NCBI GenBank assembly: GCA_031274995.1
Contig: JAISPJ010000087.1
Span: 1-64,000 of the forward strand
Direction: 5' to 3'
Origin: Azoarcus sp.
GTDB lineage: Bacteria; Pseudomonadota; Gammaproteobacteria; Burkholderiales; Rhodocyclaceae
DNA: 64,000 nt
Both the position numbers and the translations under genes were made by a program. Of the stretch, positions 7,295 through 10,737 are shown in pieces (positions within the stretch are counted from its first letter, which is position 1; the number at the start of each line of letters is the position of its first letter). The notes beneath the pieces were generated by a model. The model was not told where the DNA came from. It did not search any database and worked only from the letters and a program-made list of their open reading frames with translations.

Positions 7295-7382
7295 GGAGGT
7301 CGTTACCTGCAAGTTGCGCGGAAATGTTGGTATATTAAACCCATATCCTATACCGCGACAACCACGCCGTTTGCAGGCCGTT

Positions 7383-7412
7383 TTGTCCAAGAAATCGCCA
7401 AATTGTCCAAGA
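7383..7412. promoter_or_regulatory. Perfect 10-bp direct repeat TTGTCCAAGA x2, 20-bp period, upstream of metY
   Basis: TTGTCCAAGA at 7383-7392 and 7403-7412. Confidence 0.4.
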
Positions 7413-7516
7413 CCGTTTCAGGCTCGCAGGGGCAGCGACGGGTATTTCCTTCGACCGCAGGTAACGACGGTGGGTAGATCAAAAGGGGAATTATCCGCTT
7501 GACTTCTAGCCTGCGC

Positions 7517-8278
7517 TTACGTTGTTGCTTTCATACGCTGCCTGCGCACGACCATACCCACGATACCAAGCCCTGATAGCAGCAGATACAGTGTTTCAGG
7601 TTCCGGAATCGACGAAATAGTCCAACCAATGTCCGCCAATCCGGCCAAGTCCAAATCAGTCAGATATTGGCGGCGCACATCGGGGTGCCAATAACCATAG
7701 GCTTCGAAAACGGCCAGTTGCCATATTTCCGTACCTGGCAAGGTGCTCTCGACACCTTGAGCCCAATGATCCTTTGTCCAACTAAGAACAGGTACGGGTC
7801 CCCCATATACACTGACAGCATTTTCGCCATAGAAATAGCCATCTGAAATCTGAGCGAGCCAAGTGTCGGCAGCGCCAACGCCCAAGATATGGCCCAGTTC
7901 ATGTAACGCCGTGCTAAAAAGATCATAACCATAACCAATGGCATTTTCATCGATACCGGTATACCAACCAGAACCAGGAGCTTCATTGAAAACAATTGCG
8001 CCTCTCCAGTCATTTTGGAAATCGGCACTGTGTGTTGCAGGTATAGCCTGAGCCATGAAGAGTACATTTCCGGACACCGATTCCATGGAAACAAAAACTT
8101 TCACGTCATCCATGATGTAATTTTCATAGAGCGATGCTGCTCGTTCTATCGCATCGCGCCGCTCTTGGGTGTAAAAACTGCTGGAGGGGTCATATTCAAA
8201 AATGATATCCAACGCAAATGCAGGCGACGAGACCAAGCTGGAAGCAAGAACGGCAATCAGTTTTGTGCGGAACGACAT
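7517..8278 (-). CDS. PEP-CTERM sorting domain protein with a zinc-metalloprotease-like (HELGH) domain
   Basis: Signal peptide MSFRTKLIAVLASSLVSSPAFA; STALHELGHILGVG; C-terminus IPEPETLYLLLSGLGIVGMVVRRQR; RBS CAGGAGAG before ATG. Confidence 0.88.
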   Translation of the reverse strand: MSFRTKLIAVLASSLVSSPAFALDIIFEYDPSSSFYTQERRDAIERAASLYENYIMDDVKVFVSMESVSGNVLFMAQAIPATHSADFQNDWRGAIVFNEAPGSGWYTGIDENAIGYGYDLFSTALHELGHILGVGAADTWLAQISDGYFYGENAVSVYGGPVPVLSWTKDHWAQGVESTLPGTEIWQLAVFEAYGYWHPDVRRQYLTDLDLAGLADIGWTISSIPEPETLYLLLSGLGIVGMVVRRQRMKATT

Positions 8279-8323
8279 GTGATCTCTCCTGTGAAATGGT
8301 TATTGTGATAACTGTATGTATTA

Positions 8324-8344
8324 AGCAATAATCATATTATTGCT
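8324..8344. promoter_or_regulatory. Palindrome AGCAATAAT-cat-ATTATTGCT upstream of the PEP-CTERM gene
   Basis: Perfect 9-bp arms, 3-nt spacer, ~46 bp upstream of the start codon. Confidence 0.4.
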
Positions 8345-8540
8345 GTAGCACAATGATTTCATTGAATTTAATTTAAATAATTTATACCAACCGTAAAAAA
8401 TCTTGACGATTATATACCAAAACTCGGAGACCTCTTGTTTCTCAAGGCGGCTTGTTTGCATAGCGAGTTAGGTGTGCAGCCAGCTTTAGAAGTTAAGCGG
8501 ATAATTCCCATCAAAAGCGAGGCCCGGACACTTACCCATA

Positions 8541-8634
8541 CGTGTCATTCTGGGCGGAGCCGTCAGGCGTAGTCGCTGGAATCCAGAACCGAGAGGATTC
8601 CGCGACTACGTTTCGCTCCGTGCGCGATGACGTA
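8541..8634. repeat. MITE-like imperfect long inverted repeat
   Basis: Left arm CGTGTCATTCTGGGCGGAGC..CGTAGTCGCtGGAATC, right arm GATTCCGCGACTACG..GCTCCG..GATGACG. Confidence 0.65.
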
Positions 8635-8667
8635 ACGGAGGAAAGTCAGGCAGCGTATTTTTCAAAT

Positions 8668-9063
8668 TCAAATTGAGGCACTACCGGACCAGAGGTCACT
8701 GAAGTGTTGGCCGACAATACTGACGTCCCATTGGACACTGGGAGCGGGGGCGGGACTTGGATTTACATCGGCATTAACGTTAACGTTGACATTGACATTA
8801 ACGTCAAAAACCTTGGTTGTCGGCGGCGGAGGTACGTCATTGCAGTGCTTTGGCGGGCATACCACCTTTGGCACAGGTAATGGCAAAGGCATGCAAATCG
8901 GCGGTTTAGGCGGACAAACCGGCGGCGGTGGACAGTAATGCGGCGGCGGCGGCGGGCAATAATGCATTGGTGGTGGATGGTACACCGGTGGTGGCGGTGG
9001 GCAATACATTGGCGGTGGTGGAAAAAACATCGGGGGGGGGCACCCAAACATGGCATAGCACAT
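8668..9063 (-). CDS. Pro/Cys/His/Tyr-rich low-complexity protein with a VN-repeat tract (131 aa)
   Basis: Start at ATG 9063 (MCYAMFGC) with upstream GGAG; CPPPPPVYHPPPMHYCPPPPPHYCPPPPVCPPKPPIC ... VFDVNVNVNVNVNADVN. Confidence 0.6.
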   Translation of the reverse strand: MCYAMFGCPPPMFFPPPPMYCPPPPPVYHPPPMHYCPPPPPHYCPPPPVCPPKPPICMPLPLPVPKVVCPPKHCNDVPPPPTTKVFDVNVNVNVNVNADVNPSPAPAPSVQWDVSIVGQHFSDLWSGSASI

Positions 9064-9297
9064 TTTCAATCTCCTCGAACAATGACTCCCGGCGTGGCCG
9101 GGTCGGCGCTGCAAGCACCATTGAAGACCTGAAGCCTGCATTTATTCCATTTGCGCATGCCGGGACCGCGCTGCTGCACACTGTGCGCGACCCCGTTTGA
9201 ATACTCCATATGCGTCGGCAAGGAACATTGTCATTGTAACAGCAAAAAACATTATGTAATACAGATTTATTTTGGAAGCAGGCGGGAACGAGGCGAA

Positions 9298-10737
9298 TCA
9301 GGTTCTTGCCGCGATGAATGCCTTGACGGCCTCGACATCCGGCGGCATCACCTCGACCCGCTGCGGCAAGACTTCCAGCCCTTGCAGATCGGCGGGGATT
9401 TCCGGATCGCGCCCGAGCGCCTCGCGAATAGTCTCGGCGAACTTCGCCGCTTGCGCGGTTTCCAGCACCAGCAAGGGAACATCGGCGGGCAAGCTATCGG
9501 CATGCTGCCGGGCAACCTTCATGCCGTCGGCAGTGTGGGGGTCGATCGTCACTGCGTAGCGCGCATGAACATCCCGGATCATTTCCAGGCGGTCGGCATG
9601 TGCGCTCCTGCCGGAAGCAAAACGAAACTCGGGCAGGCGCACGAAAAACGGCGTGCGCGACAGATCGAACACGCCGCCCGCGTCGACTTCTTTCCACAAT
9701 CCGGCCAGCACAGCCGAATCGCGGCCGACAAGTTCAAAAACGAAACGCTCGAAGTTCGACGCTTTTGAAATATCCATCGACGGACTGGACGTGACGTAGG
9801 TTTCGCTGGCCTTGCGCGGGCGATACACGCCGGTGCGGAAAAACTCGTCGAGCACATCGTTTTCGTTGGTGGCCGCAATCAGCCGTTCGACGGGCAACCC
9901 CATGCGTCGCGCGATCTGACCGGCGAAAATGTTGGCGAAATTGCCCGAAGGCACACAAAAGGCCACCCGCTGCGCATTGCTGGAAGTCGCGGCAAAATAG
10001 CCATAAAAGTAGTAGACCACCTGCGCCGCCTGCCGCGCCCAGTTGATGGAATTGGCCGCGCCGATGTGATGCCGCGCCTTGAAGGCAGCATCGTTGGAAA
10101 CCGCCTTCACGATGTCTTGAGCATCATCGAACATGCCGGTGATGGCGATATTGAAGATGTTGTCGTCGGTGAGCGAATACATCTGCGCGCGCTGGAAGGC
10201 GCTCATCTTGCCGTGCGGCGAGAGCATGAACACCTTGATCCTGGGCTTTCCGCGCATCGCGTATTCCGCCGCCGAACCGGTATCGCCGGAAGTCGCCCCC
10301 AGAATGTTGATCGTCTCCCCGCGCTTGTCCAGCACGTACTCGAAAAGATTGCCCAACAACTGCATCGCCATGTCCTTGAAGGCGAGCGTCGGGCCGTTGG
10401 AGAGCGCAAGCAGCCCCAGTTTGCCCGGCTCCAGCCAGCGAAATGGAACGATTCGGGCCGCATCGTCGCCCGCGCGAACGTGGCGGTAAACATCGGCGGT
10501 ATAGGTGCGGTCGCAAATGTCGCGCAGATCGCCGACGGGAATATCAGTGATGAATTTCGAGAGAATTTCAAACGCCAATTCGGCATACGACAGATGTCGC
10601 CAGGCTTCGAGTTCGGCGCTGCTGACCGTGGGAATAGACTCCGGCAGATACAGACCGCCGTCCGGGGCCAGACCGCCAAGGAGGATGTCGCAAAATTCGG
10701 GGCGGGCAGCGTGACCGCGTGTGGAAAGGTATTTCAC
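9298..10737 (-). CDS. thrC: Threonine synthase
   Basis: 479 aa; MKYLSTRGHAARPEFCDILLGGLAPDGGLYLPESIP...PTLAFKDMAMQLLGNLF. Confidence 0.95.
   Translation of the reverse strand: MKYLSTRGHAARPEFCDILLGGLAPDGGLYLPESIPTVSSAELEAWRHLSYAELAFEILSKFITDIPVGDLRDICDRTYTADVYRHVRAGDDAARIVPFRWLEPGKLGLLALSNGPTLAFKDMAMQLLGNLFEYVLDKRGETINILGATSGDTGSAAEYAMRGKPRIKVFMLSPHGKMSAFQRAQMYSLTDDNIFNIAITGMFDDAQDIVKAVSNDAAFKARHHIGAANSINWARQAAQVVYYFYGYFAATSSNAQRVAFCVPSGNFANIFAGQIARRMGLPVERLIAATNENDVLDEFFRTGVYRPRKASETYVTSSPSMDISKASNFERFVFELVGRDSAVLAGLWKEVDAGGVFDLSRTPFFVRLPEFRFASGRSAHADRLEMIRDVHARYAVTIDPHTADGMKVARQHADSLPADVPLLVLETAQAAKFAETIREALGRDPEIPADLQGLEVLPQRVEVMPPDVEAVKAFIAART

Follow-up and report, generated by a model that had tools for sequence, protein, structure and literature searches.

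A PEP-CTERM gene between IS1595-type ends in an Azoarcus genome: a probable mobile insertion cassette

How did a gene for a PEP-CTERM protein come to lie between inverted repeats and short direct repeats at the metY-thrC junction in Azoarcus sp., and what could have moved it there? We addressed these questions in a contiguous stretch of 64,000 nucleotides of this genome (the window) and in genomes of the same genus. We consider it highly probable that positions 7486-8509 are a non-autonomous mobile insertion cassette of the IS1595 type with a PEP-CTERM passenger gene, which was inserted once and was most likely moved in trans by an IS1595-family transposase. In such a mechanism the mobile unit would consist of two transposase-recognition ends and one passenger gene, with no transposase. 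It would have entered the site by a single transposition event leaving an 8-bp duplication, catalysed by a transposase acting in trans, one of the IS1595-family kind that the same genome still encodes. An earlier note on this DNA had read the segment as a transposon-like cassette, to be given up if the repeat proved to be a common dispersed motif without paired duplications or if relatives had the gene at this locus without the repeats; the reading is supported, and neither situation was encountered.

The ends, the duplication and the insertion site

The cassette is 1,024 bp long. Its left terminal inverted repeat, GGGAATTATCCGCTTGACTTCTA, occupies 7486..7508 on the plus strand and is an end of IS1595 type, while the right one, GGGAATTATCCGCTTAACTTCTA, lies at 8487..8509 on the minus strand (plus-strand reading TAGAAGTTAAGCGGATAATTCCC). 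The two repeats match at 22/23 positions. Immediately outside them stand two plus-strand copies of the 8-bp target-site duplication ATCAAAAG, at 7478..7485 and 8510..8517, which are identical at 8/8 positions; the layout over 7478-8517 is exactly as the earlier note had described it. Since the duplication is intact, one transposition event at this site is indicated. The GC content of the cassette is 45.8%, compared to 59.1% for the window, and the right-end segment of the element (8370..8486) is poorer still, with 38.6% GC measured over 8370-8509.

The combination of repeats and duplication is far above chance. Among the 6,467 pairs of identical 8-mers situated at most 3 kb apart in the window, the pair of the cassette had inner ends matching at 22/23 positions, compared to 15/23 for the runner-up; in five shuffled windows the best inner-end match was 13-15 of 23. 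With up to 3 mismatches allowed, the 23-mer end was observed in the window only at the two cassette sites (0 expected) and at 3 sites in the whole 2.1 Mb genome, so the genome-wide search proposed in the earlier note did not reveal a common dispersed motif. Among the relatives searched the 23-mer end was not found beyond the genus, scans of GTDB genomes and of viral contigs for an exact match to the cassette end returned nothing, and the cassette DNA had no match among plasmids. The full cassette is single-copy in its own genome, and therefore no movement after the present insertion is seen.

In the relatives with a readable junction, metY stands next to thrC in divergent orientation, and no cassette separates the two genes. 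In the window, thrC (9298-10737) is inverted with respect to the comparable relatives, and the orientation of metY and typA is unchanged. A comparison of the metY-thrC junction, suggested earlier as a way to find an empty site, was therefore informative in part: the readable relatives have no protease gene there, but a base-exact empty site is unreadable, with thrC inverted in the window. Both flanks of the cassette are dispersed repeats. The left one (7368-7478) is similar to the 3' end of a sequence that is repeated in the relative G018 and looks, by eye, like the tail of a tyrosine recombinase. With the cassette taken out, one of the G018 copies can be aligned over the resulting junction, extending only about 15 bases past the left flank, which is suggestive of an empty site.

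On the other side, the right flank (8541-8650) resembles a short repeat of G010 and G013. Next to the cassette is an ORF of 157 aa (8668-9141), rich in proline and containing short tandem repeats. The relatives Nt197P3bin56 and Lab288P3bin88 (Betaproteobacteria MAGs) presumably come from a termite-gut set (cf. PMC7024585), judging by their isolate names, and the betaproteobacterium with the cassette is probably also a termite-gut organism.

Related ends in the genus and a candidate driver

Relatives of the cassette ends were sought in its own genome and in 21 other genomes of the genus, and the consensus GGGAATTATNCNCTTAACTTCTA was built from 15 ends. An exact 8-bp duplication was observed in four distinct elements having both ends, the cassette of the window included; an element in G017 (contig C4) has both ends present and no clean duplication. 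A complete, autonomous 2,174-bp element bounded by ends of this consensus was found in G009 (G009:C8:106269-108442; L027:2270-4443), with the duplication TAATTTTA on each side and a 312-aa transposase carrying PF12762 (DDE_Tnp_IS1595) and the IS1595 zinc ribbon. The cassette right end is identical at 17-18/23 positions to the ends of elements with IS1595 transposases. In a third genome (L121) the start of a transposase gene is situated about 70 bp inward of an end of the same type, and G020 has two transposase-less miniature elements of 160 and 270 bp with same-type ends and exact 8-bp duplications (AAACATTT and AAAAAAAT).

This evidence points to ends of the IS1595 type. Both an 8-bp duplication and ends starting with GGG, as in IS1595, were found in the window, in the G009 element and in the two G020 elements. 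The earlier note had left the family open while naming IS1595, IS66, ISL3 and ISAs1; the link to IS1595 is direct. The cassette is an IS1595 derivative rather than a strict member of the family, because there is no PF12762 transposase within 7486-8509. The ISKra4 family, which also makes 8-bp duplications and has GGG ends, was rejected, with no NF033572 match in the 22 genus genomes. For comparison, the IS1595 member ISApl4 has ends GGGGCTGTACTAGA, starting with GGG, and 8-base AT-rich repeats (PMC12561309). Passenger genes also have a published precedent in the family (tIS), according to Siguier et al. 2009 as cited in PMC3129680 and PMC5704250.

A transposase gene in the same genome as the cassette (C84:20732-21352) has a product 90% identical to the G009 transposase, and it sits behind an end, GGGACTTATATACTTAACTTACA, that is identical to the cassette right end at 17/23 positions. 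The resident element, whose transposase has 313 aa, occupies G000:C84:20094-22273 (L095:2595-4774). Contig C63 (L154:3925-4544) probably has its other end, since the outer 8-mers TATTTTTT (C84) and AAAAAATA (C63) are exact complements. A second left end, on contig C96 (L155:1-137), is identical to that on C84 at 136/137 bases. The resident IS1595-type element therefore exists in at least two near-identical copies in the genome, and the closeness of this match argues that the element is multi-copy and was recently active. A second IS1595 transposase of the same genome, on contig C77, was set aside, having different flanking repeats (GGGTCTTAGGAAGC...).

From the family relationship of the ends we infer that the cassette was mobilised in trans by an IS1595-family transposase, of which the resident element is a plausible source. 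The resident ends agree with those of the cassette at only 16-17/23 positions, however, so a closer, unseen IS1595 element, lost from the assembly or never in it, may be the driver instead. The cassette ends and their probable driver in one genome make a testable pair.

The right-hand 120 bp of the cassette (from about 8390 outward) recur with 77% identity at G000:C84:3906-4025, where another PEP-CTERM gene begins immediately downstream of the end. A weight-matrix search for a partner of this end found none; the C84:3906 site would therefore be either a second cassette that has lost one end or a solo end.

Several ends of the family (L121:4930, L029:4515, L004:3906 and L095:2595) lie directly after T-runs, some of them behind apparent terminator hairpins, which suggests that T-rich targets or terminators are preferred. 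In two relatives, solo ends (L018:2973-2995 and L021:5070-5092) adjoin an Xre-type regulator gene beside a dihydrolipoamide acyltransferase-like gene, possibly as the result of an old common insertion.

The passenger gene

The only plausible gene within 7486-8509 is a complete minus-strand ORF (7517..8278) with AGGAG upstream of its ATG. It encodes a 253-aa PEP-CTERM metalloprotease-like protein with the motif HELGH. No transposase or transposase remnant was found inside 7486-8509, which bears out the earlier description of a PEP-CTERM gene as the sole content; the stop codon is close to the left repeat, as had been claimed, at a distance of 8 bp rather than about 9.

The protein has a match to the PEP-CTERM motif PF07589 above the cutoff (E 7e-7), and an N-terminal hydrophobic stretch and a C-terminal basic tail were read from the alignment of homologues. 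It thus has the features of a PEP-CTERM exosortase substrate: an N-terminal signal and a C-terminal PEP motif with hydrophobic stretch and basic tail. Two further profiles, Peptidase_M10 and NF038122, gave sub-threshold matches, while HExxH is invariant across 9 homologues from the genus. The AlphaFold model has a mean pLDDT of 46, i.e. low confidence. The product is best called metalloprotease-like.

The homologue in G013 is 90% identical over the gene body and the roughly 90 bp preceding it (8279..8369 in the window), and it resides at a different locus. No cassette ends were found around it. The cargo gene body has a dS of 0.08 from its G013 counterpart, with 6/88 fourfold sites differing, compared to a dS of 0.33 (51/220 sites) for metY and 0.43 (60/226 sites) for thrC; the difference at fourfold sites gave a Fisher p of 6e-4 against metY and 5e-5 against thrC. 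Because of this low dS and the other locus in G013, it is simplest to assume that the gene moved laterally. That transfer need not have involved the cassette, since the G013 homologue is without ends. More generally, homologues of the protease gene in relatives lie elsewhere and have no such ends, so the arrangement that would have spoken against a cassette was not seen.

The idea of a recombinant PEP tail in the cargo of the window was dropped, its tail being like those of the G010 and C32 homologues. These homologues are more distant, and the exchanged tail is that of G013.

Other origins and known cassettes

Could the segment be an autonomous IS1595-type transposon that decayed, with its transposase lost or replaced after insertion and the PEP-CTERM gene as one of several passengers, so that it never moved as the present unit? 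IS1595 elements of the genus do bear passenger genes. On the other hand, there is no transposase remnant, and the gene extends to within 8 bp of the left end. The right end, moreover, is shared with the C84:3906 site and not with the autonomous element, which suggests that the transposase-less form is older than the present insertion. We therefore regard this origin as unlikely.

Solo ends and miniature elements of the end family occur near PEP-CTERM genes, and so two of them might have been inserted independently on either side of an existing gene. An identical outer 8-mer is not expected from independent events, though, and neither cassette end has an inner partner, which makes such a history very improbable. 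The location of the C84:3906 end just upstream of another PEP-CTERM gene could also be taken to mean that the inverted 23-mers serve PEP-CTERM genes as a bidirectional motif, for regulation or termination, and that the 8-mer is repeated by coincidence. We give this a probability close to nil: the same ends bound an element with an IS1595 transposase as well as two miniature ones, all three of them flanked by an exact 8-bp duplication, and most PEP-CTERM genes of the genome have no such motif.

A mobile insertion cassette is thus the reading that we retain. Mobile insertion cassettes are best known from Bacillus or for resistance genes. Several of their features were found here as well: inverted repeats related to those of an IS, a flanking target duplication and a passenger without a transposase. 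MIC231A1 of Bacillus cereus carries a D-stereospecific endopeptidase gene and, according to its description, is moved by the IS231A transposase acting in trans (PMC3913671). Both MIC231A1 and mic-qnrD of Proteeae plasmids share with our cassette IS-type inverted-repeat ends, a passenger in place of the transposase and a target duplication, and MIC231A1 is similar also in carrying a gene of the peptidase kind. The ends differ: those of MIC231 are of IS231, while the ends and the 8-bp duplication here are of IS1595 type; mic-qnrD has 24-bp repeats and a 2-bp duplication, compared to 23-bp repeats and 8 bp here. Unlike both, the present cassette carries an exosortase-sorted protein; its mobilisation in trans is presumed.

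Within the IS1595 family, the IS with passengers (tIS) are similar in their 8-bp duplication, GGG ends and passenger, and in our case a transposase of the family is encoded elsewhere in the genome, behind ends related to those of the cassette; the cassette differs in having no transposase of its own. The IS1595-ended MITEs of G020 and G017 have the same kind of ends and no transposase, with exact 8-bp duplications in G020, but they measure 160-270 bp and have no evident cargo, while the cassette carries a complete gene. Mobile insertion cassettes are therefore a known kind of element, and the PEP-CTERM cargo is unusual, as the earlier note had anticipated, though the first MIC described also bore a peptidase gene (PMC3913671). 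An exosortase-sorted cargo on a cassette shows one way in which the set of PEP-CTERM proteins could be renewed.

The autonomous elements have cargo of another sort, and the resident candidate driver is of note because its ends enclose type VI secretion genes. On C84 the transposase gene is followed by one for Hcp (PF05638, TIGR03344) and then by the first part of a gene for a BPSL0067-family protein, truncated where the contig ends. Beside its transposase, the G009 element encodes a protein with a Tlde1 domain (PF10908), likely an antibacterial effector, and a 97-aa probable membrane protein, a possible immunity partner. Conceivably, one IS1595-type end system moves both surface and competition genes, with autonomous copies bearing type VI effectors and putative immunity genes and with transposase-less cassettes in which PEP-CTERM genes can be exchanged behind one shared end; we hold such a cassette-shuffling system to be a speculative and rather doubtful extension.

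In G013, an end of the same family on contig C11 (L158:3391-6007) is located near ORFs that include Tae4 (PF14113) and Rap1a immunity (PF18602); neither a transposase nor a second end was found when looked for there. The probable right end on C63 adjoins a 171-aa ORF that is similar to an ORF beside this G013 end.
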